Origin: Owenia fusiformis
Taxonomy: Eukaryota; Annelida; Polychaeta; Sabellida; Oweniidae
Assembly (NCBI GenBank): GCA_903813345.2
Contig: CAIIXF020000008.1
Coordinates: 26,582,822-26,646,821, forward strand
DNA: 64,000 bases
Direction: 5' to 3'
Positions 1-46,920 of this stretch are shown piece by piece. The position numbers were made by a program, and so were the translations under genes. Position 1 is the first letter of the stretch; each line of letters starts with the position of its first letter. Under the pieces are notes generated by a model. It was not told where the DNA came from, did no database searches, and saw only the letters and a list, made by a program, of their open reading frames with translations.

Positions 1-3000
1 AGATGCCAAACCATTATTTTGGAAAAAACTCCTTGACAAAATAGCCGTGAGAAAATAACATGAAAATCTATAACTAAGCTAGAGATATAGCAACTTCCAA
101 GCTAGGAAATCCCAACGAACAAGACATACGTTTCAAATCTTTCATCATTTTGAAAATGTCAAGATAGAAAGAATTACTAGGAAGTAAATTCACCTTTCCA
201 CAAAGTAAAGAAAATCCATAATTTCCGGCGCGATGATTGGTTGTATGCAAATGAGTCAAATCAATAACGTCAATGATGGAAAGTTTTGAAGAATTAGTAC
301 AGCCAGCATAGGAATATTTTGAATTGACTGCAACAAAAAGGATTCTCTTTGCTCAATGCACTAATTATTTTTAATCAAATATAAAATATGGACGGGGCAC
401 TTTCATTCCGAATCTCATGTAATTTAATTTAATCATTTTTTGACAGAACTATTGTTTACGTATTAAGACTTCTTAGGTCAGCCTCACATACCCGTGCTCA
501 CATGTCTCATGCGATTGTAAACAAAAAATGTAAATTGTGAAGTTACAAACAACTCGGTTTAATTATCTAATAGTGGTCATACAATATCCTGTTTAATGGT
601 TATTATGTCGTAGTAAAAAGTTTCATCAAAAATTCACCACGAGTGACATTCGCGCAAAGCGTTACCTTTTGGTATTTCGCCATCAGCAAGTCAATAACGA
701 TCAGCAATGTCAACACATCATCAATAAACATTATATGATATACGCTCTTTCCCTGAAATCTTCCCAGTGATCATTATTCAAAACCGATCATCACAACTTA
801 TTTATCCTATGAAAAATGAGGTTGCACAAGTGAAGTTTCAGGACACCCTTCATATCCAGGTTTGTTTTCTATGAAGCGTTCTCATTCTCCTTATTTTCGA
901 GAAATTCAGCATCATTTTGGTTAAGAAAAATTTTACGGTCTGCTGGATCTATTTTGACAGTTTTGCTTTGGCAAGATATAATTTTAACAAATTGACTGTT
1001 TCTACACTGAATAAAAAAAACATTTTCCCGGGAAAATTTGGATCGGGAGATACGCAGTGGGAAATATGTGACATATACATTGAAACATATATACATGTAT
1101 ATGGTACGCTCCTTAAAGATATCAATTCTATATTCCGATATTTTCAAGTATAATATTTTCAAGATAAGATCTGATATGACTTGCAGAAATAAATAGGAAG
1201 TAATCGTTTAGTTCATTGAATTATGGGAGTAGTGAAGTCAATGATTTAATGAATAAGAGCAAATGTTTTTAATTTGAACATGTCATTCATCAAATTAAAC
1301 TTAACTTAAATAGTTTGTCTATCTCTATATTTTTATGCATGAGAGACATGTTATAATGTTGGTGAACTAATGATTATGATAATTTCACCTGTTCACATCC
1401 AGTTCCTATCATGATTGAAAACTGACCGGGAGTAATTCTCTTCAAATTATTTACTCATTATGAACAGAAATTTAATATTTAAATCGCTTAGAAGGCGTAA
1501 ATAAATGTCAATTTGACGTTCAATAAAAATCCGTCAATAATTTACTGTTTACTTGCACATTTGAAGAGGTAAAACTTACAGCAATCAACCGAGGATTTAC
1601 ATGTAAACTCAATTGCATTTGTTTTTCTCTCATTGACGTCACAGATTTTTAAGAGGCTCATTATAATAGTCATGAGCTGACTTTGTGGCCCGCCGCTTTG
1701 TGGAAAGGTGAATAGTGAGTCTTTTTGCAAAGATGGACAGGTTTTCAATATCCCTACTAAACTTTCTTGGGATAATAAGTGTATGTGATATATATTGAGA
1801 GTATCCTACCTAGAGGATCAGGATACATTGGAACAGATATCAAATCCTATATCAGAGTGACTCAAGATTTCTGACCCCTTTTTAACCTAAAAGACCTTCT
1901 AGACATTCTTCTAAACATTATTCTTATATGCACTTATTTGCCGGTATATTAACAAGCGAATTGATGCAATTCTTTTACACAAAAAGTGATATTGCGACAT
2001 GGTGTCCATTTCAAATCTTTGTGACTTATTTTGAATTATAGACATTATATAATAAGGTACCTGTACTATTTCATGCAAATTGATGAATATTATTAGATTT
2101 ATATCCAAAAAGGATCAAAAACAATTTTCTGACAATAAAAGCAGTAGCAATTTTAATATATTACAAGATATTTTACCAAAACTTCTAGACATTATTGTTC
2201 ACCTGTACACCAACATCTGGGATTCACAAAAAAGACAAACCCCATGACTTGTCTTGTTCATATGCCTGTATAGTTTCAAGCAATATATACGATATACAGT
2301 AATACTGTAATAGCCTATTTAATGTTTAATCAATGACTCAAGTTGCACAGTTCCATGGCCATCTGTAGTACCAAGTTCCATGACTGTCACAAGCCTATAT
2401 CATCTCACATAGTTTTTATTTCATTAAAAAAACATTTTACATAAACATTTATATATATGTAGTAAAGTATTCATTACAAGTTACAATTGTCTTAATGATT
2501 TATTCTTTACATAAGTGTAATCATACTGCTCTGTTTTATTTATTGATTATATCCAAATAAACTTATATGTTTGTATACGCATATGTATATATTATATCAT
2601 TTGTTGTATTGCATGTGTTGGATGTTGTATAAGATCCTCTTATATTCTGTAAAAAGTCACATTCTCTTCCCAACATTAGCCTGGTACATTTTGGTGTCTT
2701 ACCAAGGCAAGCAAGACAGATGATGAGCTGCAAAAATGTGGGCAACATGTCCAGTATGCCAGTACCCCAAAAGACATGAACAAGTTCACGGATAATCCTT
2801 CCTTTGACTCAATTTGTCATAACATGATGATATGAATTGTTTGCAACATGTGTTATCAGTCCACATCATGCTTTTCGACACAATGAAATGGTACCAGGTA
2901 AATATATTAACATTCTTTTATGATGGGGATTCATGCCTTCAGATGCAATGAAACAGTTAAGTTTAAGGACATTTTTGGCAGCAAGGTTGAGTATTCACAG

Positions 3001-7515: not shown

Positions 7516-7794
7516 ACTATAGAAGGGGATCATTTAAAAGCACGATCTATTTCACAACGCCTTTAACTTTTGTTCTTCAACTGTTGCCCTTTGTGCATTT
7601 CAAAAATAAAATATCTTAATCTGATTTGTTCCACCTTTCTTTTCGCTCAGTTCTGCAATATTATGTCCATATGTTGTTTAGGATTATGTCATTTGCGAAA
7701 TAGCTGTAAGACATTATGAGAATGAATATGGGAGTTTCCACGATAATGTTGTTCACATGATTTTATACACATACCTGCATAACAATCGGAGACA

Positions 7795-8470: not shown

Positions 8471-8479
8471 CGGGTTTTA

Positions 8480-11400
8480 ATTACATTTTATGTATAGACT
8501 TTTTTACCTCTATTCTCATTTTTAAACCTGTTTCTGTTTGCTTATTTAACAATTGTGATAAATTATTCAGTTAGTGTCGAAATCAAAACAATTTTCTACA
8601 TTATAGTCCCCTCCTCTTTCACTGACTAAATATTAAAATAAGCCAGTCTGATTGCGAATTTACAAATCCTGTAAAAGTAGCTCCAAACCGCTTTTTAATC
8701 AGAGAAAACAATAAGTTAATTCATCTGATTGCGAAAATACGAATCAACCTGATTATCTGATCTCCATGCTATTTGATTCGTGCATTATCTACAAGTCAGT
8801 CGGGCAAGGGTGAAATTATTTCATTTGAAAACAGAAATAAATATCAGAACCCCTCTAGCATAACTATTCGGAAGAAATTCATACAAAAAATAAGGTACAC
8901 AACTGATGAAGGGTCGCACACAATGCACGCACCCCTCTCCTCCTCCTCCGTGTTTGCCCACACACGACCATATTTGACAATTTTCCTAAAAGCGTTTTCC
9001 CCGGGAATATAGGTGTAGCGGTTGCCAGAAGTCGCACAGCTTGGGAGTCAGGGTATCCTCATCCATGCCTCAACGCCTGACGGGTCTGATATTTAGAGGG
9101 GGCGCAAGAATTATTAGGGGGCGGGGTAAACGTGAAAGTTGCCAAAATATCCATAGGCGTAGCCAGGAGGGGGGGGGTGCGATATCAATAGGCTTTATAT
9201 ATGCTTTAATGTTTTATTTATCATGATGCTTTTATGTAGGCTATTAATTACAGTTGTTTTTGCAATATAAAACTGGTATGCTTATGCAAATTCCGATTGG
9301 ACTAATAGAAAGGGATATTGTTTCATTATGTGGACTTGAGAAAGTCCGACATACTCATTGCTTTCAACCCAAAACTTAAAATAGGAAGTTATCAAGATCC
9401 CAAGAACACGATCGCTACTTAAACAATATGTTTGTAAAATCCCGGCGATCGAAATGCAATCAAACTTTCGCAATCAGGTGCCTAATTAGTCTTTTGATCT
9501 CTAAAGTTTTACGACTGAACGTTTCAATGAACTCGTGAGAAGCAAACGCAATCATCACATAAACATTTTTCTAGTAAATCTAAAATAGAGTAAAACCCAG
9601 GGAAAAAGATCGCGTGTTCATAGGAATTAGGCATATTTCAATTTTAAAATAACAAAAGTCAGTCTCGGAAGAATTTTCCAAGCATTCCCTGCTTCGATGC
9701 GTTTTTATTGCAAGGGCCGTTTAGCGCCGATATGAATTCATTATAGGGCATTAGGGTTGTGCTTTATTTGTTTTATTTATATAAATGTTATAAAATGTGT
9801 ACGACACTTTAATGAATTATTTTTAGGGTTACAATGCATATTTGACTTTTCCCTCTAAACGTTTAAAGTTCATCTTTATACTTTTCTTAGTTTGCTTCAA
9901 TAAAATTAACATTGGATCCCAGACAGTTATCAAATTCTCAGACATTTGATTAATATAGATATTTGTACTTCCTTTGACCAGTGGTGCTGGTGTGACTGAG
10001 ATTCGAATCTAATTTGTTTCATTTTTATGTAAATTGAGAGGAATAAAGTTTTATTTTAAGCGTTTTAACAATCTTAACGTTTGGCGTGCAGCTCAACTAA
10101 ATACACAATCAAAGGTCAAATACAGAAATAAGAACATGCCTTTTATTTGTTATTCAAGCTCGAGCAATATCCCCGTTATAAAACCAAAATAACTGCGGTT
10201 AGGTACCATATCTTGATTACAGTAAAGACAGGCCATCTCATTCTGGTATGCCAGAGCCACTCTTATCTGCCGATTGTGGAAGGATAAAGACAAAGGGGTC
10301 GCGGCTATCACGATGAGGCCGTCTTATTTTTAGGAATTATTTCTGCCTCTCATTCCTTAAACCGGCTTCGTTAAACAGTGCCAAAATATATAAGTCAAAG
10401 CCAAAAACAATACTATTTTTATATTTAAATCCCCTCACCTTGTCAATGTCTATGCCTGCATCTGGTTTTCCCACCTTTGGAAGTGAGCCAATATACACAT
10501 AGATTACTTACTGGCCATGGACAGGGGGGGGGGCACAGAAACGAACATTCTGGGGTCATAAGGGATACTTGGGGAAGGGGAGGGGTGGTGGTGAATAGTG
10601 AAGTCCGAGAGTGAAGTTAAGGGGTACTGAAATCTTTCTTTTGATATTTAGTGATTGAATGGAGACTTGTTTCCACTCCCCGCATTCTAGTAGAATTTAA
10701 ATATTTGATCCAAAGGAGTTACAGGTATTTTAAATCAAACTTGCATTCCGAGTAATTAACACTCCAAGGATTGTACCGCTTCACTATTGTCTAAGATAAT
10801 TATAATGAATTCACGGGACAGTATAGTCTTCCTTTTAAACTTTAGTGGTTGGATGGAGACTTGTTTCCCCACCCCGTACACTAGTAAATTTGTAAATTTT
10901 AAATATTTGATTTAGGGAGGTATTTGCGATCCAACTCTGATGATGCAAGACTAGTCAGCCAAGACTAAATTATGAACTTATTATCATTTAGACTATTGAG
11001 TTCGTTAAATTATAATTCCATAGATATCATAATTAATCCTGTCAACACAATAATGGTATTAATTGGCATGATATGTAGTCAGAGACGGTTTAAAAAGTTG
11101 TTTAGATTAATGATAGTATTAGGAAAAATCCTAACTCAAAGTTTTTGTTCTATCGCAATACAGAGCAAAACACTCGCCGGGCAAGCATTCTTTAAAAACG
11201 TGAAGTTTTCACCATGTTGAGCAGTTTTGAAAATTGTCCAATTTGAACCATCGCCTTGTATATTTCTGTAACTGCCCCCCCCCCCTTGACACTCGAGTGT
11301 AAGAATCCTTTCCACACTGTCAATGGTTTTACAAAATAGTTCATGTCAGGAAGGGGAAGGGGTGAGTGTGGAGAACAATCACTGACTGCGATTTGTATGA

Positions 11401-18933: not shown

Positions 18934-20727
18934 ATGATCTTTGCGAATCACTTCAATGAAGGCCCATGTACAGATTTAGAACATAATGTACAAATAATTG
19001 AAAAAGTTCCAACAGAGGATAAGAAAATTACCAAACTAAGTAAAAAATATGAAATCAAAAAGGCAGCAGACCAAAAACAAAGAGAGGACAAGGAGTCATA
19101 CTGGATAAAGAAATTCCAATGTGTACACCCATACGGATTAAACAACAGACTGGAGAAAAATCTTCAGCAAAGAACAGAAGATGATGTAAAATACAATGAC
19201 TTTGATAACAAACGGAAGAAGAAAAACAAAAGGCCAAAGGGAAACCACCGTAAAGAAAAGGCATTAAAAGCCAATGACGTATTTGAAACTATAGTGGAAC
19301 AAAGCAATAGAAATGTACTGGCAGGTATGAAAACAATCTTGAGATTAGTCCCACAAATGAAGAAGACAGAATTGAAAAAACTTGGAATGATAAATATAGA
19401 AGATAATGATAGACTACACACACGACTTAAAATTACTCTGGAGGACAGAATCCAATCAAAACTTAAGAAAAACAATAAACTAAAGACCAAGAATAGGAAA
19501 AAGAAACCAACAAAATTCTGTAAAATACTATTTGAAAACAAAGCAGTAGAAGTAATCAACATTGCAAATATCTTAAGAGATGAAGAAGTGATCAAGACAA
19601 TACCTTCAAGTATCAAAAATAAGGAACCACCAGGAATTGTCAATATATACACAAAGCCAATAAGGAATAAATTGTTCAACTATAGTTAGATTACAGAAAG
19701 TATCGACGAAGGCAACAATACAGGAGAATAGGATTGTAATACATCTGAATTTAAGGATGAAGACCATGGTCACGTCATAGCAGGAAATCTGAAGATTATA
19801 CAAAATCCAAAATTGAGAAAGCTATTCAGTAAAGGTCCTGGCTATAGAGAAAAACGAAACATTAACTTCAGGAAAGCAAAAGAAGAAATAAAGAAAGGAA
19901 TAGATGAGTATGCAATAAGTTGGACAAAAAATGAAAAAGTTTCAAAAGTATACTTAAATGAATGGAAAAATACTGTAATGGAAAAGGTTAAACAAAAGAT
20001 TGTGTTACTTCAAAATACAAAATTTAGACACATAAAAAATCCAAAGGAGACACTAAAGGACCATAATGCTATGGAAGAACTCAATCAACTCAAGGAAAAA
20101 TATGCCTTTGTACCTATTGATAAGGCAGCAAATAATATTGGGTTTATGTGCAAACAATACTACATAAAGAAGATTAAAGAGGAAATTGGAAGTGACACCT
20201 ATCAAAGGATAGAAGATAAAGAAGATATAGTGGAGGAAATCAAAGAGACAATGAAAACAAAATTCAAGATTGAACCGGGAGAAGAACAAAGTATTATACC
20301 AAGGATTCATCTTACAATTAAAATGCATAAACAGCCAATTAAATTTAGATATATCATTGGCTCAAAGAAAAGTTCTGTAAAACCAGCTGCCAAAAAACTG
20401 ACCAAGATTCTTAAACTAGTGCAATATACTAACAAAAGATACTGTGAGAAGATTAAGGATTATACAGGTGCCAATAGGATGTGGATCAGCGACAATAACC
20501 AAAAATATATGTTAGATAACATTAAAAGTGTAAATTGAAGGAACGGGGCAAGAAACATAGCCTCGTATGATTTCTCTACACTATACACAAAGATAAATCT
20601 AACTGACATAAAGGAAAAACTGAAATGGGTGATAGATAAAGCCTTCAGAGGAGGAACTAACCAAAAGATAACAGTAGGTGGAGATGAAGCCAAATGGGGT
20701 GGAAAGGCGGATAATAAAAAGGCATAT
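18934..20727 (+). mobile_element. Penelope-like retroelement (Naiad-like), 5' part
   Basis: The first frame (18934-19689) has ESYWIKKFQCVHPYGLN near its N-terminus, the terminal segment of a GIY-YIG endonuclease, followed by a long Lys-rich region. The next frame (about 19813-20538) carries FVPIDKAANNIGF and IHLTIKMHKQPIKFRYI, Penelope-type reverse transcriptase landmarks, and the following region holds SYDFSTLYTKI, the first catalytic RT motif. An endonuclease tail upstream of the RT, with none visible downstream, fits the permuted order described for Naiad/Chlamys Penelope-like elements. The copy has several breaks and is cut at 20727 by the 11.6-kb transposon. The GIY-YIG catalytic beginning is not visible. 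Confidence 0.7.
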
Positions 20728-21105
20728 GGGTCTTTTTCAAAAGTTCGTCACTCAAAAGTTCAAATGTTACATGCTCGATATCTCAACATTTTGAGAAGTA
20801 TAGCCAAAAGCGATTATTTTATTCAACTCAGTAGAGGTTAAAAAGATACTGAGGATAATATCAGGTGAAAATGTTAAAATTTGTTGAAGTTATTCACTTT
20901 TTTGGGCTTCGTGTCCAGCTGTTTTTGCAGTTTTTTAAGCAATTTTGGGGGGTACATCAGAGATACATCCCCTGGATCTTTCTTTCTGGAAATGAGGCGG
21001 AAAAATGTGTTGCCACAAGTCTACAGAGGTTATCTATGTGAATCATTTCGTTTTCAGATAATAAATCTACCATACTCGAAAAATAAGACAATGTCAATTT
21101 AGAAC

Positions 21106-22469
21106 TAACGTGCGTGATGCATGGTGTCAAACACCATCACGCACGTTATTCATGAGCTCAAGGCTGATTATTTTTACAAAAAGTCAGATGAAGTGTTTTT
21201 TCGAAAGAGGATACACCGAGCTCTCATTGTGTTCAATGCTATATGAAGTATATATGGAAAATAATTTTTATGCTCAGTTGCGTGCATTATCGTTTTTCGT
21301 GTCAAACTCGTCACGCACGTTAGAAAGCCTATTTTCATACAAAATACGCGATCACATGTGTAAATGAAATTGTATTTTATTTACACATTTACGAGATGTT
21401 ATAGATCCAGTGGTAAGTTTCAACTCTGAAGCGGCAATATGGTCTTTATAAGTTGCTCGAAGATTGGTGTCAAACTTCGTTACACACGTTAATCCGCCAC
21501 GCACGTAGTCCTTTATCGTGTCATACTCTCGCATTAACGAATTACTTAAATTTCTCGATATAAAACGATTTTCACACACACCTAAATGTAAGAAAGGGAA
21601 CATTCATCTGGAATCAGCAAATATTGTGTTTGTTTTCGTCATTAATCTGTTTTTTGACACCATAGCTTAATTTATATGTGATAAAAGTGTTCGTGTCAAG
21701 CAATCACGCACGTTATAAAAGATGTACATCTTGTCCTTATGCTAATGGTTATGTCAATAGTCTTGTCAGGAGTGCCAAGCACTGATTTTTATTGCTTTTA
21801 CTAATCTCAGTTTCACAGTTCAGAAAATTTCGTCAATTATTGTATGCAGAAAATAGAATAGAACCAATAAAATTCTAACGTGCGTGACGTTTGACACCAA
21901 TGGACTCAATTCTTCTCGACTTCACTGAAAACAAATTCTTTATGCATGGTTATTTGAATTATATAAATGATCTTTGATCGACTATTTAGACTATTTATTC
22001 CATAAATGATATTGCATTGATAGAAATTGCTACAGTTTCGTTCCACATAGACCATTCGCAATTTAGATTCGTCCCGGCTGGGGCCATTTTGGCTAGCAGA
22101 AGACGTAAGTATTTCGTATAATTCGACGTATTTTCCCCATAACTTGTATTGCTTTCAACATATATTCAGTTCCCAACAAAAACACGTTGCTTGTAGAACC
22201 CGAATATAGTAAAATTAATGCGTTTATGGACTTGATGCTTCGTCACGTTCGACGTTCAATACAGCCTTAGGTATCAATGGAATAAGCTTACTTTGACGTT
22301 AGGAGATGTTTGTCATTTGACACCTCATATGTGTCAAATAAATGGAACTTGGAATATAGACTTATAAGATTTGTCATATCGCTTTAATAACCTGGCTATA
22401 CATGTACAGGCCTATTCAGTTACAAAAATGTATCTAATTCTACATGTATTCTAATTCTAACGTGCATGA
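21106..22469. repeat. Left subterminal array of TCACGCACGTTA motifs
   Basis: Copies of TCACGCACGTTA lie at 21137-21148, 21311-21322 and 21704-21715 on plus, and at 21106-21117, 21876-21887 and 22458-22469 (one mismatch) on minus. Degenerate copies are at 21480-21491 and 21497-21508. Most have GTGTCAA 2 to 13 bases away on the same side (for example GTGTCAAACTCG before 21311). The pair 21106/21137 forms a near-perfect hairpin. The core GTCAC is shared with the TIR (GTTCGTCAC). In CACTA-type elements such arrays bind transposase or accessory protein; the same role here is inference. Confidence 0.85.
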
Positions 22470-22518
22470 TGCTTGACACTAGGCCTAGGCTATTTCTTGT
22501 ACATGTGTTTTGTAGAGC

Positions 22519-25500
22519 ATGTCGCTCCTCAGAATATCACTTGGATCCAGAGCTTCTAGCACAAGTACAAATAGACCCATCGATTCCAGATCTAGCTCAG
22601 CAAAGTACATGAAAAAGTACAGAGGTTCATTGAAACAATACCCTGATTTGTGGAGAGCTCACAGGTAAATCCATTTTTTCCCTTTTCTCTGTTGATATCT
22701 TACTCAATATGATTTCGTTTATAAATGTACAACATTCACAAAATGTGTCAAATGATACAATACATAGTTACATACAATGTATTATCGATACATGAAAGTT
22801 ATTGAGATGTTATAATATATGAACCCCGCATTGATGACCCGGAGCAACCAAGACATTTATATTAAAGACTAACCCTCTTTGGTCATGTTTTATACACTAA
22901 AGGTGCGCTATTCCAGGCTATCGAAGATTTGAAATATCAGGTGCAGTGTAGTAGTACCACCGTCTAATAGACCTTTCCAATAAATCCTGACCCCTATTTG
23001 TGAACCAAGGAAACTAGGGTATATTGGCTAGACTGATTTATGATGTCATACTTTACAGGCAGCAATGTTTGTAAACAAAATTGAAAGAAGTTTTTGAAAA
23101 TTAGCAATATTTTAATCCTATTTCTGCACTGAAATTGTAAGAATGACATCATAACCAATAGATGACATGCTTTCTGGATTGATCTATTATTGCCATGGTC
23201 AAATCAATACACATGATTATTTTATCACAAGGGGTATGACATACAGACGAACAAAGATGACCATTAAGTGTCCCCTACCTCGTCGGATCGCAAGAGTGAA
23301 AGAACATAGTATCACTGAAAAGAAAATAGGATTTTCCATTTGGTTAATCAAACATGGTACATGTTTCTTGTTTTCAACAATAAGTGATGTTTTGATATTT
23401 CAATTATCCTTTTCAGAAAGCTCGAAATTCTTCGAATTGCGACGTATCATAAGACAAAATCTCGCCAACGAAAGCAGCTATCACAAGAGCAGAACAACAG
23501 GAGAGCAAATTTGTACAGGTATCTCCTTCGATAATTGCTATTTAAAACATTTTCAGGTTAATGTTAAAGTATCCATGCAGAAAACAAACATTGATGCACA
23601 TGAATTTAATTTTCCAAGACGTATAAAAGTAGCATAAAAATTTATATTTATTACTGTCAAGGAAAGAACATGAACCATTGTTCCTTCAAAGCATCCTACC
23701 TGTGTAGATCTCTTGAAAGGGAAAATTTTGAAGTATTATTGGGGTCTCCAACAGTGGAGAAACGTTTTGAGTATTTCGTGGAGTTCTAATATAGTACTCC
23801 CGCTAACTGTTTTTTGTCAAATATCTGAACTTTAATTTGAAGCACTAAACATACACTACATCCGTCCGATTTATTAAATGGTGGGGTATAGTTATATTAT
23901 CGCCGTCCATTTATATCCCACTTTAAAAAACAGACGAGAAAGGAGACATATTGATCAAATAGGTGGTATATGTATTCACTCAAAGTGTATCTTTCGCTAT
24001 TACACGACAGCGTTTTTGACGGTTGTACTACGAACTACTCCACTTTGTAGCATCACTTCTAAATGATGCTGATAAAATACAACTTAACATGATGGTGTAA
24101 TGGAGTTTAATGTGCAAATGTGTAAATCTATTTTAAGTCTGATGAAAAAAAAACGTTATTTAGCAACTCCTCTAGGAACTCTTTAAAGCTTTATTAACTG
24201 TTTTTGCACGTTGTCTTATTTTCTTCTTTTTACATTACTATATAGGCAACGACAGAGGGAAAAGAGAGAAAAAGAAAAGACAGAGAAAAGAGAAATGATA
24301 AGCAAAGATAAAGAACTAAGAAATACACGAAGCAAGCTAAAAGATGAACTGATGACACAAATGAAGAAACGTGAATATTGGGTGATGAAGAAAAGGCAGG
24401 AAAGGTTAAACATGAGCTCACAAAAGAAACGAAGAATATTAGAAAGACGAAGACAACGTTATGAAGAACAAAAGTTGAAAAACTCACCCGTGGAAAAGAA
24501 TGAAACCAAAGATGACGAGAAAAATGAAAGCCCGTTAAAGTCAGGGACATCCAGAAAGTGTTTGTTTCGAGAATCAGCTATCCTAAAGAAAGTAATCAAA
24601 GGCCTTAAAGCTAAAAGAAATAAGAATGACAAAGAAATAAGAAGAAAGCTACTCATGTCAATTGCAGCAGCAAAAATGAGAAGAAAGTATTTGTCATTTA
24701 GTAAAGCCAATCAAAATTATCAACTCTCAATCGAGTTATTAAAATGAACCTGAACTCGAGCAAAGCTGAAGATGAATCAAACAAGATGAATGAAGAAGAT
24801 AGCTACAGTGAAACGCAAAAATTCTTCCTGAAACCAGACATATCAACAATTCAACCAGCCAAATCAAGCGTCATATTAGAATCAAAGGCGAACGGCAGTG
24901 CCTCGTACAAGCCTAGACAAGTACTCAATAGGTCTATAAAACAAACTTATGAGGAATTTTAAGAAAATTCTAAGGACACAAAAATGTCATTCAGCAAGTT
25001 TTATCGTCTCATGCCGTCGAACGTGAAACCACAAGCCAAGCACACCCTGAATCAATGTGTATGTGAATACTGTGCTAACGTTGAACTAAAAATCAAAGCC
25101 ATACAGTCATTCGTCCGCAATCATTCTATTAAGGATGAACACCTTGGTAAAGTAATACAAAATAAATATAAGCTAAGCAAAGCAACAGTTTGTTCAGCAG
25201 AAAGCTTAACATGTGTTCAGCGCTCCTGTGAAGAATGTGGGGTCAAAACTATGATGACCAGTCAACTGTAGCCAATTGAGCCATACCTCAATGAATCTAT
25301 AAATTATAACGTCTGGCAAAACTGTTTATCCAAGAACAAAAAAGGCAAAAATGTAACAAAGAAAGGACTTGTAAAGAAGACCTTGAATCCGACTTGATGC
25401 CATATTCAGAACATCTCTATGCGGCAAAATGGCAAAGTACACAATTTTCGAAGCTTATTGAGGAGCTGCCACCTCTTTGGCTTGTAATGTGCATGGACTT

Positions 25501-26097
25501 TGCTCAAAATTATCTTTGCGTGTTTCAGGACGAGGTCCAGGCTGCTCACTGGCAGCATGAGCAAGCCACCATTCACCCTATTGTCACATACTATAATTGT
25601 CCCCAATGTAAAAATCAAATTACGACGGAGGCCTTGATATTCATCACTAACGATCTTAAGCACGATTCTCACGCTGTTAGAGTTTTTGTTGAGAAGGCCA
25701 TTGACCATCTCAAGAAAAACAGAGATGTTGAAGTCAAACGAATGATACACTTCACCGATGGTTGCAGTTCACAGTACAAATGCAAGACATCCTTTGCCGA
25801 TGCAAGCTATAGCCTTGAAGATTATGGTATTATCACAGAAAAACACTGTTTTGGCTCCAGACACGGCAGTTCCAACGTGAAAATTCCATTATATGATATA
25901 AATAACACAGGGAATTTTACTGCATTGGTTACTTTGACACATAAATTAAAATTCTGATATTTCCTAATTGTTCCGTACATTACTTATAGATTATGTGTAC
26001 CAGCTGCAAGAGATGGGCCCACGAGCCATGTGCGAGATACGGAAACATCGACCAAATGCACTTTACGTGCCACAAATGTGTAAATAAGGAGAAGTGA
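22519..26097 (+). pseudogene. Spliced transposase-like gene of the 11.6-kb element
   Basis: Exon 1 (ATG 22519 to 22664, donor GTAAAT) encodes KYMKKYRGSLKQYPDLWRAH. It joins in phase to exon 2 at 24246 (after ACTATATAG), a highly basic coiled coil (RQREKREKEKTEKREM and on). The frame changes near 24745, and the next frame gives SFSKFYRLMPSNVKP and a Cys-rich CVCEYCANVELKIKAI, with in-frame stops at 24960 and 25269. From 25394 another frame carries VMCMDFAQNYLCV, an HEQATIHPIV segment and MIHFTDGCSSQYK, with two Asp that could be catalytic in a DDE/D fold, then FGSRHG, where the usual continuation is lost. A final exon (25990-26097, after ACTTATAG) encodes CTSCKRWAHEPC and FTCHKC, a PHD-like zinc module. 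The family is widespread in invertebrates to my recollection; I cannot name it. Confidence 0.65.
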
Positions 26098-26870
26098 ATT
26101 TTGGAACCAGGTTTGTACACAGTAATTTGAATAATTGGATAACAATTACTCCTGATCCGTACAATGCCTTATATTTCTCCTGTTATGAAATAGCCATAAA
26201 ACATAAATGAAAATGAAGTCAATATTTTATGACATTACTTTCCAGGCCAAGGAAGCTGGGCAGAGATGGGTTCTGACTTACTGAGAGAATGTGGAACCAT
26301 GGCACCGACAAATGAACATTTATGATGAACATTATTGAACCTTTATGTCTTTCATAGTCTAATTTTAGCATTCAAGTGTACAAACGTTGTCACATTTCAC
26401 TGTTCTTGTTATCAGTTACACGCTCCTTATTTAAGTTTGGAAGGCTTTTTTCCAATTTGTCAGAATTTGATAAACTTTTGTGAGGGAAGAAAATTCAAAA
26501 CCTGAGGAGCCTGAATTAAAATCCCGATCATCATGATGATCAAATGTCAATAGTAACTTAAATTTCCACTGGTTTTGATATAAAATGTATAAAATTCAAA
26601 CAGTGCTATTTAAAATGTAACTGTATTGTATTGTAGTCAGTTGTAAGTAGATAGATTACCGTCTTAATGTTAACCTTGTGGTTGTTACATTTTCAAAGTA
26701 ATTGTTTTGTGCCAGTTACAAGATATTAGTGCAGTCAGTTAGGTTTTTAATTACACATGCTATATATAAATCACCATTTTTTGACAGAAGTATCATTAAT
26801 ACGTATATTTTTGATATCTAACGAAGTGGTGGTAAAAAGTGGCCCCTGTTGATAATAGCAGGCCTCGAAA
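26098..26870. other. Non-coding spacer in the 11.6-kb element
   Basis: No open frame of note. A pyrimidine-rich acceptor-like TTACTTTCCAG lies at 26237-26247 and is followed by a short Glu/Gly-containing frame, which might be a further degraded exon. The rest is AT-rich. Confidence 0.4.
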
Positions 26871-26874
26871 ATTT

Positions 26875-28370
26875 TGCACATTTACATTGAGCTCCATGTT
26901 AATTTATCAATCTTCATAAGACCCCCTGCAGAGCAGTTAAAGAGAAATAAAGCCAATGTTTCTAGTATGTTACAATAACATGATTATCTTCAAAATAAGA
27001 AGGGTTGTTTTTTTTTCTTTTACCTAGTTCCAAAGATATAGGAGTTTTAATTTTGGAAAATCCCCATTGGCTGCCATTATAAACCACTATCAATATAGCT
27101 TTATTTAAGTCTCCTTTTCTAGAAAAATCCACTATGAAATTTTTTAATATTGTAGATTTCTATAGTCAATATATTGACTTAAAAGAAATCAAACAGGCAC
27201 ATTTCTAAAAATTTCTTGTTTTTAATATATTTAGCTGTGAAGTTGTATAAAAACCTATATTGAGCCCCATGTTAATTTTTCAATCTTCAAAAGACCCCCT
27301 GCAGAACAGTTCTAAAGTAATAAAGCCCATATTCCTAGCATCTTACAATAACATGATTATCTTCAAAATAAGGAGGGTTGTTTTTTTTCTTTCGCCTAGT
27401 TCCAAAGAAATTGGCATTTGAATTTTGGAAAATCCCCATTGGCTGCCATTATAAACTGCTATCAATATAGCTTTATTAAAGTGTCATTTTCTCAAAAAGT
27501 CCACTATGAAAGTTTCTAATATTGTAGATTTCTATAGTTAATATATAAACATAAAAAATTTCAAACAGGCACATTTCTAAAAATTTCTTATTTTTAATAT
27601 ATTTAGCCGTTAAGTTGAATAAAAAACCTATATTGAGCCCTATGTTAATTTTTTATCAATCTTCATAAAACCTCTGCAGAACAGTTCTAAAGTAATAAAG
27701 TCCATATTCCTAGTATGTTACAATAACATCATTATCTTCAAAATAAGAAAGGTTGTTTTTTATCTTTTACCTAGTTCCAAAGATATAGGAGTTTGAATTT
27801 TGGAGAATCCCCATTGGCTGCCATTATAAACTGCTACCAATATAGCTTTATTAAAGTGTCCTTTTCTCAAAAAGTCTACTATGAAATTTTCTCATATTGT
27901 AGATTTCTATAGTTGATATATTGACTTAGAAGAAATCGAACAGGCACATTTCTAAAAATTCTTATTTTTAATATATTTAGTCATTAAGTTGTATAAAAAA
28001 CTCTATTGAGCCCCATGTTAATTTTTTGATCTATAAAACAGAATAGTTCTAGAGTAATAAAGCCCATATTCCTAGTATCTTACAATCACATGCATACGAT
28101 TACCTTTGAAATAAGAAGGGTTGTTATTTTTCTTTTGCCTAGATCCAAAGATATTGGCGTTTCAATTTTTGAAAATCCCATTGGCTGCCATTATAAACTG
28201 CTATCAATATGGTTTTATTAAATTGTCATTTTCTCAAAAAATCTACTATGATCTTTTCTAATATTGTAGATTTCAATAGTTAATATATTACCTTAAAAAA
28301 TTAAACAGGCACATTTTTAAAAAAATGTATTTATAATATATTTAGCCATTAAGCCATTAAAATTGTATGT
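26875..28370. repeat. Four direct copies of a 373-bp unit
   Basis: The landmark TTGAGCCCCATGTTAATT (first copy TTGAGCTCCATG) recurs near 26887, 27260, 27632 and 28006, spacing 372-374. Each unit also holds CCCATTGGCTGCCATTATAA and ACAGGCACATTT. Copies differ by scattered substitutions, so the array is not recent. It has no coding capacity. Confidence 0.8.
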
Positions 28371-28452
28371 GTAGGTTTTTTAATTTTATTTATTATGCAG
28401 ATTTTAACACTTCCTCGGTAGATATCAATAAAAAATTGCTTCATATATATAA

Positions 28453-28897
28453 GGCCATAAGAAGTTAATTCTTTGTTTTGCGTCCCCTTGCTTGCACGAT
28501 TTTGAGTAAATCAGAAAAAACAAACACATCCAAATAGCAATCACAAGGGCCTGAAAGTACTATCGCATTTCGTTCAGCCTGAATCAGAAATGACGAGACA
28601 ATTTGATGTAGGTAAAAATTTATAGTGTTATTGATTACTTTGGCATACATTGTGCATTTTCTTATTTTGGTTACCTTTGAATAATAGCTATGTTTAAATA
28701 TATTGTATATGATGTATAGATATATGTTTGTTATCACTGCAAATTGGTATGTCATCCCTTTTTATGCCCATAAAATGAATTCATTTCTTAAGCAAACAAG
28801 TTTGTGTTTTTTCTTGAGTTTGTGTTTGTTTTCCTTGTACCCTTGCATGATTTGGATTTTGCCAGGACGCAAAACAAAGAATCAACTTATTATGGCC
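28453..28897. mobile_element. 445-bp Harbinger-like MITE with TAA duplication
   Basis: The left end GGCCATAAGAAGTTAATTC and right end are inverted repeats of about 33 bases with two differences, both continuing into CTTTGTTTTGCGTCC. TAA flanks both ends (28450-28452 and 28898-28900). A 3-bp TWA duplication and GG-rich termini are typical of PIF/Harbinger. There is no transposase; a 96-residue minus-strand frame inside is probably chance. It sits in the spacer between the direct and inverted halves of the fold-back array. Confidence 0.8.
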
Positions 28898-29284
28898 TAA
28901 TGTGCTATTGAACTCCAATTAAATATAAAAAGCAGCTTTAGTTTATAAACTTGAAAGAAATCAAGAAATTTGTATTTCTTGAAATGAGTGCTGAGGGTGT
29001 TTCTTTCGCCTATAATACTCTAAAAAACTACTGTATCTTTATTTTCAAAAGATGCCTTTTTAAATTTTGTACCACAATGTCTGGTTACCTTAAAATCGAG
29101 ACGTATTTCTTACTAAATCCTGAAAATTATAAAATAGGCGTCTATACAATCAAATTTCTAGGTCCCATTTTAAATATTGCTTTAAACTTTTTGGCCACGG
29201 GAGTGGTAGAATAAGGTACCCTTTTTTAATCCACATGCCTCTTTACTCCTAAATAAACCATGTTTCACCTGAGAAGCATACGTT

Positions 29285-31335
29285 TTTTGAATCCATATAT
29301 TAACTATAGAAATCTGCAATATTAGATAATTCCATAGTGGATATTTTGAGAAAATGACACTTTAGTACACATATTGATAGCGGTTTGTAATGGCAGCCAA
29401 TGGGGATTTTCCAAAATTCAAACGCCAATATCTTTGGAACTAAGTAAAAGAAAAAGAGCAACCCTTCTTATTTTAAAGATAATCATGTTATTGTAACATA
29501 CAAAGAATAAAGGTTTTATCATTTTTGAACTGTTTTGCAGGGGGGTCTTTTGAGGATTGATTTAACTTGGGGCTCAGTATAGGACTTTTTATAGTTTCAT
29601 GTGCAACTAAATGGCTAAATATATTAAAAATAAGAACTTTTTAGAAATGTGCCTGTTCGGTTTTTTAATATCAATATATAAACTAGAAAAACAGCAACTC
29701 CACGGAGTAGCAAATCCCACCGAACAAAACATATTATGCTTATTATAGCTAGTGTAAATGTTGAAATGTTTGTGCACTTTGTGATAGTCTATACCATTGT
29801 GAAATAGGCATCATCATATAAAATTTGAACCAAATCCGTTCACTATATGAGTTATCAAAGATTACGCTTTTTTACGAAAATTGGCCGCCATCCTGAAATT
29901 CAGACGCCATCTTGAAAATTATTTCTTGAACAGAGCTACTGTGTCCCCAGGCATAATCATATAAAATCTCAACCAAATCTGTTCACTGGTATTTGAGTTA
30001 TCAAAGATTACATTTTTTACGAAAAATTGCCGCCATTTTGAAATTAAGCGGCCATCTTAAAAAATTTGTGTCGAACATAGCTACTGTGTCCCTAAGCATC
30101 ATCATATAAAATTTGAACCAAATCCGTTCACTGGTATTTGAGTTATCAAAGATTACATATTTTTACGAAAAATGGCCGCCGTTTTGAAATTAGGCGGCCA
30201 TCTTGAAAATCTCTTTTTGTGCGAAACTCCTTTGTCCCTAGGCATCAGCATATAAAATTTGAACCAAATCCGTCAACTTTTATTTGAGTTATCAACGATT
30301 ACATTTTTTACGAAAAATGACGGCCATTTTGAATTGAGCGGCCATATTAAAAATTCCTTCTCGAGCAGAAGTCCTACACTCATAAGGCATAAGTCTATAA
30401 AATTTGAACCAAATCCGTCAACCGGTATTGGAGTTATCGCCCGGACACACGGACGGACGGACGGACGGACGAACGGACGGACGGCTTCTCTATATATCCC
30501 CCTCGAACTTCGTTCGGTGGGATACTATAGAAATGTGCAATATAAGAAAATTCCATAGTGGAGTTTATGAGAAAATGACACTTTAGTAAAGACATATTGA
30601 TAGTGGGTCTAATTGTGGCCAATGGGTATTCTCCAAAATTCAAATGCCAGTATCTTTGGAAGTAGGCAAAAGATAAAAAACAACCCTTCTTATTTTGAAG
30701 ATCATAATGTTATTGTAACATACTAGGAATGTGGGCTTCATCACTTTAAAACTGTTCTGCAGGGGGTCTTTTGAAGATTGATAAATTAACATGGGGCTCA
30801 ATATAGGTTTTTATACAACTTCAGAGCTAAATAAATTAAAAATAAGAAATTTTTAGAAATGTGCCTGTTTGATTTCTTTTGAATCAATATATTAACTATA
30901 GAAATCTGCAATACTAGAAAATTTCATTGTAGACTTTTTGAGAAAAGGACACTTTAACAAAGCCATGTTGATAGCGGTTTATAATGGCAGCCAATGGGGA
31001 TTTTCCAAAATCCAAACGCCAATATCTTTGGAACTAGGCAAAAGAAAAAAAACAACCCTTCTTATTTTTAAGATAATCATGTTATTGTAAGATGCTAGGA
31101 ATATGGACTTTATTATTCTAGAACTGTTCTGCAGGGTGTCTTTTGAAGATTGATGAATTAACATGGGACTCAATATAGGTTTTTTATACAACTTCACGGC
31201 TAAATATATTAAAAATTAGAAATTTTTAGAAATGTGCCTGTTTGATTTCTTTTAAGTCAATATATTAACTATACAAATCTACAATATTAGAAAATTTCAT
31301 AGTAGACTTTTTGAGAAAAGGTACTTTGGTCAAAA
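29285..31335. repeat. Inverted copies of the 373-bp unit, interrupted
   Basis: The reverse complement of the 26.9-28.4 kb unit appears about three times: about 29285-29690, 30525-30890 and 30890-31335, each with TTATAATGGCAGCCAATGGG or a close variant and AAATGTGCCTGTT. Together with the direct array this makes a fold-back structure of about 4.5 kb. A separate GGAC-containing repeat is inserted between about 29690 and 30525. Confidence 0.75.
29690..30525. mobile_element. Insertion made of about 140-bp tandem units with a GGAC tract
   Basis: The ends carry AAATCCCACCGAACAAAAC (about 29712) and CTTCGTTCGGTGGGATA (right), short inverted repeats. Between them are four or more diverged units containing AAATTTGAACCAAATCCGTT, GAGTTATCAAAGATTAC and GGCCGCCAT. 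A (GGAC)n run follows at about 30438-30483. ACTA or CTATA appears on both sides of the insertion, suggesting a short target duplication in the 373-bp repeat. A related left end may lie at the very start of the window (about 81-125). Confidence 0.65.
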
Positions 31336-31464
31336 AATGGTGCTTTATATATAGCATGTGCAATTCTATGGTTTTATTGACCTAACTGACTGCACTATAT
31401 GTTGGTCTCATGAAGTCCATTAACATTTTACTGTTATTGTTAAAATCGTGTCAACTTAAAATCG

Positions 31465-32197
31465 TCACACACGTAGAATTCAAGCAAACATTTTCTTGAA
31501 TAAAATAATGAATACACATAACAATATATCGCTATGTCATTCTTCAAACTAAATAATTTGAGGAAAGCTATTAATGTTAATTGTAACGTATCCTGCTGGG
31601 GAAATGGAATGACCATGAAGCAAGATACTGTACGTTATAGAATAATTTACTTCTGTGGTTGAAATAAGTCCTAAACCATTGTATTAATCGGATATCCATA
31701 TTTGCCAGTTTAAAAATATAATATGTTTGATGTTTGACAAGGTATAACATGTATTATACACTAAGAAATCGACTGCTGTTACTTTATCACTAAGATGTAC
31801 ACTTATTATTGAGTTTAACATATTTCGTGTCAACACAATCAATTCATCACGCACGTTAGTTTTTAGTAAAAAACTTGCTTAATGCCTTATGACACAAAAC
31901 TTACAAGGGTAAAACGTTTATTTAAAGCTTTAGATTGGTTAAAACATATTTATTCCTAATATATCATGTTATATGAGAAACTCAGGATAGCAGATGAAAA
32001 ACGCAGATATTTAAAAACGTCACGCACGTTAGCATATTGAAAATTAGCTGAGAAACCTTAAATGCATAAATTCATGAAATATCGACAAACGATTTTTTCT
32101 TCATATGCATTTACACAGTTTGAGAGACTTAAATGTATTTTATCGTCTGTATTACAAAAGTAACTGTTGATTTCATCAAAAAACGTCACGCACGTTA
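31465..32197 (+). repeat. Right subterminal array of TCACGCACGTTA motifs
   Basis: Plus-strand copies stand at 31465-31476 (TCACACACGTAG, degenerate), 31847-31858, 32020-32031 and 32186-32197. The first two are preceded by GTGTCAA at distances of about 11 and 15 bases. Unlike the left array, all copies here have the same orientation. Outside 20.7-32.4 kb I did not find this 12-mer in the window, so it is specific to this transposon. Confidence 0.85.
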
Positions 32198-32363
32198 GAT
32201 TTTTTACATTTTGCTGTGTTATTTCGTAATTTCCACTTAAACTATCTTTTAAAGGCAATTTTCTGGAACAATGTTCGTTGTTCGTCCCAAAAAATCAAAA
32301 ATTGATGGAAATATCAACCGTTTTAATTTTTCGGAGAAAGTGACGAACTTTTGAAAAAGACCC

Positions 32364-33250
32364 ATATATCAAAGGAGAGTGCAATGATCTAGTGGATTTC
32401 ATCGTGGATACAGCCTACTTTAAAGCAGGGAAATCAATTCTAAGACAGAAAATTGGAATACCGATGGGAATCGATCCGGCGCCATATATGGCAAACCTAT
32501 ACTTATACAGTTATGAATTTCAAGCCATTGAGGAAATGTATAGGGAAGACTACTCCAAAGTACTAAAATATGCTAAAACTACAAGATTCATCGATGATTT
32601 ATGTACTATAAACAACGACGGAGAAATGGAGACTGATATGAAGAACATCTATCCTGAAGAACTAGTGTTAAACAAGGAAAATGAGAAGGATACAGAAACA
32701 ACTTTTCTGGACATACAAATGAAAATAGTAAATAAACAAATCACAACAATTTCCAAATAGTCTCATAACCAGATTTATCTGGAAATATCCCTAGAAACCA
32801 GTCTTATGGAATAGTTATATCACAAATAATAAGGATTTCAAGAATCTTCAGTCAACTGGAAGATGCAACAAACAGAGTTACCAGCCTGGGAAATAAACTA
32901 CAATGTCAAGGCTACAGGAGCAACATACTAAATTTGTATACTAAGAAAGCTATAACAAGAAATAAATGGATATGTATTAAATACAATATGCAGGAGAATA
33001 TCATCATGAAGCACTGGAAAATTAATGAGAGAAGAGAACATTAACAAACGAATATGAAACAGTATATTCTCCTAAAAGAGGGTAAACTAAGAAGACAAAT
33101 CAACATAAGAACATCAGTAAGGGGAAGGAAAGTTATTCGGCCGGATCAAAACGTTTAACCCACCTATGCGCAGTCTCAAGTCTGTGGTGAAGAAAGATAA
33201 CTAACATCACAATCAAATCAAGGCAAAGAAAGAAGAAAATGGATGAAGAA
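32364..33250 (+). mobile_element. Penelope-like retroelement, 3' part
   Basis: This continues the element interrupted at 20727, on the same strand. The frame at 32392-32760 contains GIPMGIDPAPYMANLYLYS and TTRFIDDLC, the RT motif B region and the catalytic DD motif. Further pieces to about 33000 (SGNIPRN-like, SQIIR, QGY) match the RT thumb of Penelope-like elements. No GIY-YIG domain follows. The reading phase on either side of the ATAT target site is the same when one ATAT is counted, which supports a precise insertion of the DNA transposon. The remainder carries a few breaks. Confidence 0.7.
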
Positions 33251-44420: not shown

Positions 44421-44550
44421 TGTGTACATGTATATCCCAAAATTAGACCCTCATTTTTGTGTACTCTGAAACTTACCCTTTTTGGGGCAATTTGACCCCA
44501 AGGTTTTAATCTCCATTTGACAACATATACCATGTAAGAAAGGCAATAAC

Positions 44551-46920
44551 ATGAAAAATTTCACTACCTGCCATTTGTTACATAAAAAGGTTGGAGATAA
44601 TAACTATTTCACCAGTTGTGGTGTTGAAAATACTGTATTGATTCACGACTCTACAGCAAAACGCATCAAAAAAAGATTCATACTGAAGGGAAAAACCATC
44701 ATCAAAACGATTGCGTACACATTGGATGAAGCAATTGACAAGCTAAAGAACTCTGAAGTACACAAAGATAACTATATAATAGCCATTGGCACTAACCATC
44801 TGGCTGACAACCAAAGTGTTCAATCGACAGTGGGGAAGTATAATGACTTGATACACACAATACAATTGAAAGACCCACATGCCAATATATATGCCTGCAG
44901 TGTTCTACCCCGCTATGATCATGTCAGCAATGATGACATCAAAGCCCTAAATGATGCTATACAAAATATGTGCAATCTAGCAGACAAGTTGTCATATATT
45001 GACACATACACAAGTTTTATAAAGTCCTTCCCTGGAATATATGTACAAGAACATGGCTCCCACCCCACCAAATCGGGATGGGTAAAACTAGCCATGATTA
45101 TACGCCACTATGTCCAGCCCAGCAACAGGGAATTTGATGACCGCAGAGTGAACTCGACAAGACCTAGGCTACGCCCACAGCGGCCTCAACGCCCACAGTC
45201 CAAGCATGAATTTCCAAACAATGCCAATCCCCAAGTCATGCAAGACTCCATGACAGCAACCTAAAGTGCCATTATAAATGGGGAGCAATCTCAGCCCAAA
45301 CACCAACAGGATAAATCTGATTAATCACAGGATACATCACAGCCTTCTAATTATTTGAATGGGGATTATATTAATCAACGGCCATTAGTGCAACAAAATG
45401 GTGCCAGCGAAATGCAGAATGTACCCAATATGAATATCCCCTATATCAATAACTGGCAACAACCCACTCAGCATTACTTTGTACAAAGCCCATTCTTAAT
45501 AAATATGCAACATGTATCTATGGCAGCCAATACCCAACTACCCCAACTATATCCTACTCAAGGAGCACAAGTAACCCCAGTTCAGGGAGTACATAATTAC
45601 CCAATTCAGAGAGTACAAGGGTACTTGGCTCAGGAGCCACACATCTGGAAACCCAACATTCAAGTCACAACTAATTAGAATACATATATAAAATACAAAA
45701 GTTACAGGTATAGGTACTATACATTGCTACTGATTTATCTATGCATTAAGTACATGTACTTTGATTGAACAATTTTTGGAAACAAGTGCATTTACTATAT
45801 ATTACCTCTGATTTCTCCATGCGCTTAATAGTACATATACTTTGTAGTGCACAAAACAGTTAATTCAGCTCACCCTAATAGGAAAATTCGAACCATCAAT
45901 GGCTGTATTTTCTTATTAGAAGCTGGTAATCAACCTATTTGTAATGATAACATATAATTCTTAATAGTCCCATGTCTATATGTAAATATGTATGTTTGTA
46001 TAATCTTCTGCTGAAAATATCTTTCCTGTTAACATTTTGTACATTGTACTTCTAGTATTACTCCATCTTGCCATCAATTTGAAATCTATTAGAAACGCAA
46101 TTGACAATGACAAATAAGAGTCTTAAATTCCCAAAAGTTCATTGCAAAGCATCTTTAAAGATAGCAGGATGGAATATACTAGGTCTTAGTAGGACAAAAA
46201 TGGAAGATCCTAGTTTTTTTCATAGCATGATTAAACATCATGATATTGTATTTCTTTGTGAAACATGGTTTTCAAAAGCCATCAATAATTTCAAAGACTT
46301 CTCTTGCTATAATATAATACGGGAAAAAGCTAAATCAGCTAAACGAAACTCTGGTGGGATTTCAGTACTGATTAAAGAAAACATTAAATCAGGCATATCT
46401 ATTGTAGAAAAAACTGAAGAATGTGTATGGTTAAAAATTAAGAAATCTAACTTTAATCTCATGAATGACATATTTACATGTGGTGTATATTTTCCTCCAC
46501 AAAACTCTACATATATGTTGGATAACAATGCATTTAATCTCTTAGAGAACAGTATAAGAAAATACTCAGACTCTGGACTTCAATGCACGGACTTCAAATC
46601 TAAATGATTTTATCGTAGATGACTGTAATAACCACTTACCTATAAATAATGTTCAATATAATGTTGACCTGCCAATTAATCAAAGATTAAATAGAGATAG
46701 AAAATTGAACTCGTATGGTAAATCCTTAATTCAGCTATGTCATACATGCCAAATAAGAATCTTAAATGGTAGAACACTGGGTGATTACTTGGGTTAATAC
46801 ACATGCTTTAAAGAAAATGGGTGTAGTACAGTAGATTACTGTTTAGCCAGTGAACTCCTATTACAAAATATATCAATCTTCAAAGTATACCCACCTAACC
46901 ACTTATCTGATCATGCATAT
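44551..46920 (+). mobile_element. LINE with esterase-type ORF1 and endonuclease start, 3'-truncated
   Basis: ORF1 (44551-45264, 237 residues, open) has SGNH-hydrolase blocks: IHDSTAKRI, YIIAIGTNHLAD and GSHPTKSGWVKLA, followed by an Arg/Pro/Gln tail. Esterase-type ORF1 proteins are known from CR1/L2-group LINEs. A Gln/Asn/Pro-rich frame follows (45355-45678). ORF2 starts at about 46101 with an apurinic endonuclease domain: WNILGLSRTK, DIVFLCETWF, GGISVLI, then in the next frame LNGRTLGDYLG and TVDYCLAS with LSDHAY (the SDH motif). It stops at about 46920 before any RT, so the copy is cut off. Few breaks are seen in ORF1, suggesting moderate age. Confidence 0.8.

Follow-up and report, generated by a model that had tools for sequence, protein, structure and literature searches.

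The window, a 64,000-nucleotide stretch of the Owenia fusiformis genome, carries at positions 20728-32363 a single exact insertion of 11,636 bp, with ATAT duplicated at its flanks. The features of this insertion, in window coordinates, are as follows.

20724..20727, no strand: left target-site duplication ATAT, from empty sites
20728..20752, plus strand: left terminal inverted repeat, 25 bp, GGGTCTTTTTCAAAAGTTCGTCACT; family copies agree
21106..22469, no strand: left subterminal repeats, seven matches to the 12-bp TCACGCACGTTA with 0-2 mismatches, at 21106, 21137, 21311, 21480, 21704, 21876 and 22458
24187..24747, plus strand: N-terminal part of the transposase gene, very basic and coiled-coil-like, in an open frame; relatives L035 and L043 have N-termini that resemble it
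24705..25271, plus strand: the gene continues here in a different frame, interrupted by an in-frame stop at 24960-24962, and includes a Cys-rich, putatively metal-binding segment (CVCEYCANV); CxC-type motif in relatives
25310..25957, plus strand: catalytic RNase H-like part, third motif lost; from open frame, family alignment and model
25496-25498, plus strand: first D (MDFAQNY)
25757-25759, plus strand: second D (FTDGCSSQYK)
25866..25868, plus strand: scar of a 667-bp deletion, by comparison with sister copy L057
25990..26097, plus strand: final coding piece, holding the second half of a predicted PHD-type finger (CTSCKRWAHEPC...CHKC), then stop; from Pfam PHD
26724-26726 and 31398-31400: 3-bp duplication TAT of the nested insertion; the cut slides by one base to ATA
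26727..31397, no strand: nested insertion, 4,671 bp, inverted ends TAGTGCAGTCAGTTAGGT, absent from L057
31847..32197, plus strand: right subterminal repeats, three exact TCACGCACGTTA at 31847, 32020 and 32186 (173 and 166 bp apart)
32339..32363, minus strand: right terminal inverted repeat, 25 bp; family copies agree
32364..32367, no strand: right target-site duplication ATAT, from empty sites

We confirmed that this element is one precise DNA-transposon insertion. The original prediction had proposed a precise insertion of 11,636 bases with ATAT on either side, and the ends, the duplication (20724-20727 and 32364-32367) and the empty sites agree with it, with 4,671 bp of the total nested. The predicted perfection of the inverted ends also held, but they measure 25 bp, one base longer than the 24 bp claimed. 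Used as a query, the rejoined 189-bp host site returned 40 rows in the genome, two of which are the halves beside the window insertion. The 38 others cross the rejoined junction without interruption at 86-99% identity, 28 of them 189 bp for 189, and therefore define the empty site to the base. The rejoined host frame is open, with ...KAY meeting IKGECND... at the junction, in keeping with the claim that it runs in phase across the site. We take this frame to be Penelope-like; the label rests on its motifs because the host protein matches RVT_1 of Pfam only at E 0.011, below cut-off, leaving its reverse-transcriptase character weak. The window copy landed in another mobile element, a Penelope-like retroelement. 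The element itself was later host to an insertion, and its size of 11,636 bp misleads because of the 4,671 bp nested in it. Direct comparison showed this segment, which holds a 145-bp tandem array and 375-bp repeats lying in either orientation, to be missing from sister copy L057, and it is foreign to the original transposon.

The protein pieces were correctly read as one broken gene, which we identify as a transposase gene. The 667-bp deletion takes out the third catalytic motif together with the first half of the PHD-type finger, and among the nine rows found the window copy alone spans the scar. The last coding piece (25990-26097) is probably a separate exon. A PHD-like end had been noted, and Pfam does match PHD at 25990-26094 (E 0.003, below the family cut-off); the suggested finger is based on this match and on visual recognition of a Cys/His pattern. 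Pfam gave no PHD finger in relative L043 at E <= 0.1. Judging from its sequence, the window copy should make no working transposase, because the third catalytic D is missing with the 667 bp, the frames are broken and another insertion is nested in the element. The 12-bp TCACGCACGTTA motif recurs near both ends, with a spacing that is often ~170 bp. The window has 11 matches to this motif, which was picked by eye beforehand, compared to 2.0 expected, and none of 100 shuffles reached 11; L057 has nine. These subterminal repeats are perhaps candidate transposase binding sites.

Ends of the same family are present elsewhere in the 498-Mb genome, with at least 24 left and at least 20 right. Twenty-two of 24 left-end rows begin at query base 1 and the other two at bases 2 and 3. 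Among right ends, 18 of 20 match across all 123 query bases; the end at C10:33353610 matches bases 3-123, still reaching the outer end, and that at C11:34.67 consists of two rows divided by an internal gap. These rows give no sign of copies that end at different positions. Pairing left and right ends by position gave 18 two-ended copies, which span 3.7-24.9 kb by their end coordinates. Whether other copies carry 4-bp duplications had been raised with the original prediction: identical duplications flank 17 of the 18 (14 ATAT, plus AAAT, AACT and ATAG), three of them non-palindromic, and the flanks of one copy are unequal (TTAT/ATAT). ATAT or AAAT is found on both sides of 15 copies, while AACT, ATAG and TTAT/ATAT depart from AWWT, and targeting of AWWT or ATAT is a preference, not a rule. 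It is hardly credible that these are Tc1/mariner- or pogo-like elements whose TA duplication poses as ATAT; TA is contained in ATAT, but no Pfam mariner or pogo model matched, and the AAAT/AAAT and AACT/AACT copies, without TA at the join, refute this reading. The family is well populated, its empty sites are proven, and related families occur in the same genome. As far as the copies were read, the catalytic region occurs in only three of them, and none of the three has a complete gene. The 24.9-kb copy starts with 363 bp of family sequence, and the rest of its first 9.9 kb consists of repeats and a gag-like retroelement frame; judging from these 9.9 kb, nested insertions are a simpler account than a cargo-carrying giant.

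All 12 family proteins compared have the pattern D-(79..91)-D-(37..41)-D. An E lies two residues past the third D in 5 of the 12, and it is conservation across these proteins that suggests the D as the catalytic one. Two predicted models have an RNase H-like order of strands and helices, each at a moderate mean pLDDT of 62; in the first, the stretch that begins shortly ahead of the second D and ends at residue 330 has low values of 51-66. Foldseek with the first model returned nothing at E <= 0.001; among the best 50 rows listed, largely RNase H-fold proteins by their fold names, ASV integrase came eighth (TM 0.56 by target length) and the Metnase transposase fourteenth. For the second model the top row was a terminase nuclease (E 0.016, prob 0.82) and the remainder was mostly chance-like, and we do not count this search as support. 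The longest open frame in a relative is 786 aa. In the nearest related family, with 41% identity over the domain, ATAT is followed by GGGTCATTCTCC and, reversed, by GGCTCATTCTCC at two of two sites. The start GGGTC adjoins ATAT in this relative, and its 4-bp duplication rests on palindromic ATAT only. A more distant family (29%) has duplications TTCA and TGAT, outside AWWT. Scans of viral contigs with patterns from alignment A1 and the domain parts of L043 and L046 (2, 14 and 11 pattern matches) gave no relative by tblastn, and prokaryote genome contigs scanned with A1 (30 pattern matches) gave none either; with only one to six short patterns per scan, these are weak negatives. L043 had no match among PDB sequences, and none of five family motif strings occurred in literature text by exact-string search.

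No Pfam family reached cut-off in six better-preserved family proteins. Pfam holds models for hAT, PIF/Harbinger, CACTA, Ginger and KDZ, and 0/6 proteins matched any of these at cut-off. This result, and duplications that misfit TA and TTAA, bear out the earlier judgement that the element is not pogo, hAT, piggyBac, CACTA or Harbinger. In Zisupton/KDZ elements, duplications are 8 bp long and the RNase H-like transposase is accompanied by Cys-rich, CxC-like segments; the window family shares such a segment but differs in its 4-bp duplication and matches no KDZ model. Membership in another superfamily with 4-bp duplications, be it Kolobok or piggyBac (both TTAA), Chapaev/CMC or Ginger, is very unlikely. 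Chapaev/CMC and Ginger also yield duplications of this length. Kolobok and piggyBac do so as well, and Kolobok, known from molluscs among other animals, further resembles the window family in its DDD/E transposase (PMC9587614). However, the same account gives Kolobok a fixed TTAA target and a C/DxxH signature before its last E (PMC9587614), whereas the window family prefers ATAT and has D as the third acid in 12/12 proteins, with no C/DxxH separating its second and third D in any of the 12. Integrase and piggyBac Pfam models found no match. The TTAA superfamilies are rejected, as 0/18 two-ended copies lie in TTAA.

Pfam is not known to hold a Sola model, and the empty Pfam result therefore says little about Sola. 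We consider the element, with a probability of about 0.8, to be a decayed DNA transposon of the cut-and-paste type that belongs to the Sola superfamily and most likely to Sola2, a likeness drawn to the published description rather than to a reference protein. Sola elements are described as having a DDD transposase, 4-bp duplications, lengths of 2-9 kb with some >15 kb, and ends of 11-1124 bp (PMC10741241). Sola2 is described with a putative 888-aa transposase, 4-bp AWWT duplications, which were ATAT/AAAT/ATTT in another species, and ends of 12-21 bp (PMC3627910), and has been reported in bivalves (PMC10294476) and an ostracod (PMC7998251). The claim that the element fits no superfamily finds no support in this comparison, because 4-bp AT-rich duplications (ATAT, AAAT) and a DDD transposase are what these accounts give for Sola and for the target of Sola2 (PMC10741241, PMC3627910). 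Sola was itself among the superfamilies that the original prediction had suggested testing. The window family has the 4-bp duplication (17/18 two-ended copies, 38 empty sites), a DDD transposase (12/12 proteins and two moderate-confidence models, with catalysis predicted and the third D gone in the window copy), and inverted ends and copy sizes within the Sola description. Like published Sola2 elements, it is several kb long with short inverted ends (25 bp versus 12-21 bp) and a transposase of similar size (the 786-aa frame of a relative versus 888 aa). It differs in that the available text mentions neither a PHD-type finger nor spaced subterminal repeats, and in that no Fanzor gene was noticed on reading the window copy without profiles, unlike the Sola2-Fanzor chimeras of amoebae (PMC3627910, PMC4455052, PMC10741241). 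AACT, ATAG and TTAT/ATAT in the window family, and TTCA and TGAT in the relative, speak against Sola2 in misfitting AWWT.

An unlikely alternative is a DDD lineage with 4-bp duplications separate from Sola1, Sola2 and Sola3 and possibly unnamed in Repbase. Some targets lie outside AWWT, and Pfam, NCBIfam and PHROGs gave no significant match (6, 4 and 4 proteins; weak matches only, E 0.009 or higher), with Sola2 known here by description only; yet duplication length, ATAT/AAAT targets, DDD pattern and size agree with what is published for Sola and Sola2. It is similarly improbable that the proteins with MDFaeNY / TDG..SQYK / HGK.P.DG define a distinct DDD lineage characterized by a C-terminal PHD-type finger and by 12-bp motif arrays, often ~170 bp apart, at both ends. 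If this were true, the ~170-bp spacing could let the transposase read the ends across neighbouring nucleosomes.

In a Sola2-like element, the ancestral transposase would have had an RNase H-like domain with D-D-D, preceded by a basic N-terminus and a Cys-rich segment and probably followed by a C-terminal PHD-type finger. If it worked as other DDD/E transposases do, it would bind the 25-bp ends, perhaps together with the subterminal TCACGCACGTTA repeats, before excising the element and reinserting it at AT-rich targets, preferably ATAT, through a 4-bp stagger. The 4-bp duplications observed are the expected product of such a stagger. Since the three catalytic-region copies hold no complete gene, shorter copies may owe their movement to a transposase that came from another copy or has since been lost. 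The window element appears to represent a new family within a known kind of transposon, rather than a new kind: its exact ends, duplications and conserved DDD answer the claim of no superfamily by fitting known movement, most likely that of Sola2. This family and its relatives, present in one genome, offer useful material for testing how targets are chosen and what subterminal repeats do in a superfamily that has received little study.

The DNA transposon at 20728-32363 is a real, precise and decayed insertion, most likely of Sola type and of the group Sola2, a placement that rests on published descriptions. It bears a perfect 25-bp inverted repeat at its two ends, with ATAT on each side; the exact ends and flanks of the original prediction were thus correct, and its repeat length of 24 bp was not. 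The terminal 25-mer occurs once per strand within the window.

Features of the element (window positions)
21106-22469, left region of TCACGCACGTTA repeats
24187-24747, transposase gene piece
24705-24962, transposase gene piece, ending in a stop
24963-25271, transposase gene piece
25310-25957, transposase gene piece
25990-26097, last transposase gene piece
26727-31397, nested insertion of 4,671 bp, with inverted ends TAGTGCAGTCAGTTAGGT and the 3-bp duplication TAT
31847-32197, right region of TCACGCACGTTA repeats

Searches of the genome (498 Mb, 525 contigs) with the first and last 123 bases of the element, which give lower bounds, located left ends in at least 24 places and at least 20 right ends (21 rows, two of them a single end in two parts). 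Pairing by position and orientation, itself inferred, yielded 18 two-ended copies of 3.7 to 24.9 kb and left 6 left and 2 right ends unpaired. The original prediction proposed testing whether other copies also carry 4-bp duplications, and the flanking 4 bases are identical in 17 of the 18 paired copies (14 ATAT, one AAAT, one AACT and one ATAG), the remaining copy having TTAT and ATAT. ATAT reads the same on both strands, so the real test of duplication lies in the three non-ATAT sites, which show that it is 4 bp. A TA or TTAA duplication is excluded by the same sites. Among the six unpaired left ends, four (L004, L008, L071 and L073) share a flank over 100 bases, with AGTT adjoining the end. 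The two of these whose flanks are long show 98.8% identity across 2.86 kb that takes in the flank, and thus sit within a larger repeat; the four represent a truncated family copy carried in it. The 24.9-kb copy on C3 (L080) contains a 986-aa gag-like open frame on the minus strand (6842-9799 of that locus), in which zinc knuckle and protease-like segments can be made out by eye.

With the two host flanks rejoined, the 189-bp site matched 40 genome rows, two of which are the halves beside the window insertion. The other 38 cross the junction uninterrupted, with identities of 86-99% (99% in 26 rows), and the insertion is therefore precise. The joined host frame is open and in phase (KAY/IKGEC, the slash marking the junction), bearing out the proposal of a single precise insertion. 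Given the close similarity of most of the host element's sister copies, the insertion is probably not ancient. From its motifs we take the host to be a Penelope element; its frame gave a weak reverse transcriptase match in Pfam (E 0.011, below cut-off) and no match among PDB sequences. Several further frames in the window resemble retroelement parts. For example, those at 48550-49398 and 54301-54897, zinc-knuckle/reverse-transcriptase-like and aspartyl-protease-like with weak Pfam matches below cut-off, look like LTR-retroelement remains. Open frames at 44521-45264, 0.8 kb ahead of an endonuclease-like frame (46083-46607), and 58872-59546 have GDSL/SGNH hydrolase similarity (Lipase_GDSL_2, E 6.4e-08, above the Pfam cut-off; Lipase_GDSL, E 0.0009, below it) and are perhaps retroelement parts.

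Comparison with a sister copy on C11 (L057), 5,174 bp end to end, revealed collinear pieces of 92-100% identity (95-99% for the longer pieces). L057 retains the empty site of the nested insertion, which accounts for the great length of the window element; the predicted ends stand, and the length as one transposon does not. Among 40 of 220 candidate rows scored, the left junction of the nested insertion is spanned by the window alone; at least 26 rows match the side of the nested repeat, and 13 match the side of the undisturbed family sequence. Inside the nested insertion, a 375-bp repeat is present four times in direct orientation and additional times inverted, and a 145-bp tandem array adjoins an ACGG tract. 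At 25867 the window copy lacks 667 bp found in L057, a scar spanned by the window alone among 9 rows, and L057 lacks 22392-24343 and 24475-25061 of the window copy. As a result of these reciprocal losses, neither has a complete gene.

When the 25310-25957 piece was searched against the genome, 27 matches came back, the window among them. Two are sister copies at 94% identity, whose open frames measure 545 and 462 aa; the others are fragments at 79-90% and members of related families at 25-44%. Three conserved motifs, approximately MDFaENY, [TS]D[GS]..SQY[KR] and HGK.P.DG, emerged from three alignments of family proteins. The spacing D-(79..91)-D-(37..41)-D is found in 12 of 12 proteins with all three motifs, three near-duplicates included (L042, L050, L053 and the window's own row, each without one motif, were left out), and an E lies two residues past the third D in 5 of the 12. 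The window copy should be inactive, because its third motif is absent and its frames are broken. The C-terminus of a better-preserved relative, L043, has a Cys/His pattern resembling a PHD finger by eye; Pfam reported no PHD finger there, and matched PHD in the window's last piece at E 0.003, below cut-off.

AlphaFold2 models of L057 (545 aa) and L043 (786 aa) each have a mean pLDDT of 62; in L057, ten-residue domain means range over 51-89 and are lowest around and past the second D. Both models run strand, strand, strand, helix, strand, helix, strand, helix, except for a short extra strand following the first. Of the three conserved D residues, the first directly follows strand one, the second falls at or just past strand four, and the third sits where the last helix begins. 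RNase H-like DDD/E transposases are expected to show such an order, and the models suggest that the family transposase has this fold. In Foldseek searches of the PDB, neither model had a match at E <= 0.001. The 50 matches listed for L057 are largely proteins of the RNase H fold, among them Argonautes, terminase nucleases, RNase H1, the integrases of ASV and HIV and the Metnase transposase, with a few unrelated ones.

For the 12-bp motif TCACGCACGTTA, chosen by eye, the window contains 11 occurrences when as many as 2 mismatches are allowed, compared to 2.0 expected, and none of 100 shuffles reached 11. Ten occurrences are inside the element, 7 near the left end and 3 near the right, with 5 of 8 neighbour distances within an end at 166-174 bp; L057 has 9. 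CGTCAC is common to the inverted end and some of these repeats, which are putative transposase binding sites.

Ends of related families were examined at L033/L034 and L074/L075. The first pair, which shares 41% identity with the window's 25310-25957 piece, has at both sites ATAT followed by GGGTCATTCTCC on the left and, reversed, by GGCTCATTCTCC on the right; terminal GGGTC and an ATAT target are therefore common to this pair and the window family. Since ATAT is palindromic, these sites do not test duplication length. The second family (29% identity, ends CACTCATTCTACAAAAAGCGTGA) has duplications TTCA and TGAT, which do test it and give 4 bp. Sola2 ends are said to begin G-R-G, and the GGG of the element would fit.

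Family proteins had no significant hit in NCBIfam, PHROGs or Pfam, the last of which is not known to include a Sola model. A separate lineage apart from Sola is considered improbable. Published accounts describe Sola as having a DDD transposase, 4-bp duplications, lengths of 2-9 kb (some >15 kb) and inverted ends of 11-1124 bp (PMC10741241), and Sola2 as having AT-rich 4-bp duplications AWWT (ATAT, AAAT and ATTT in another species), 12-21-bp ends and a putative 888-aa transposase (PMC3627910). Sola2 is described as present in bivalves, among the less represented superfamilies (PMC10294476), and is reported in an ostracod (PMC7998251). The original prediction held that the element fits no superfamily its author could name, and this is not supported: its mostly AT-rich 4-bp duplications, DDD pattern and ends fit the published Sola/Sola2 description. 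Judged by that description, the fit to Sola2 is good, and the element probably represents a family of known kind.
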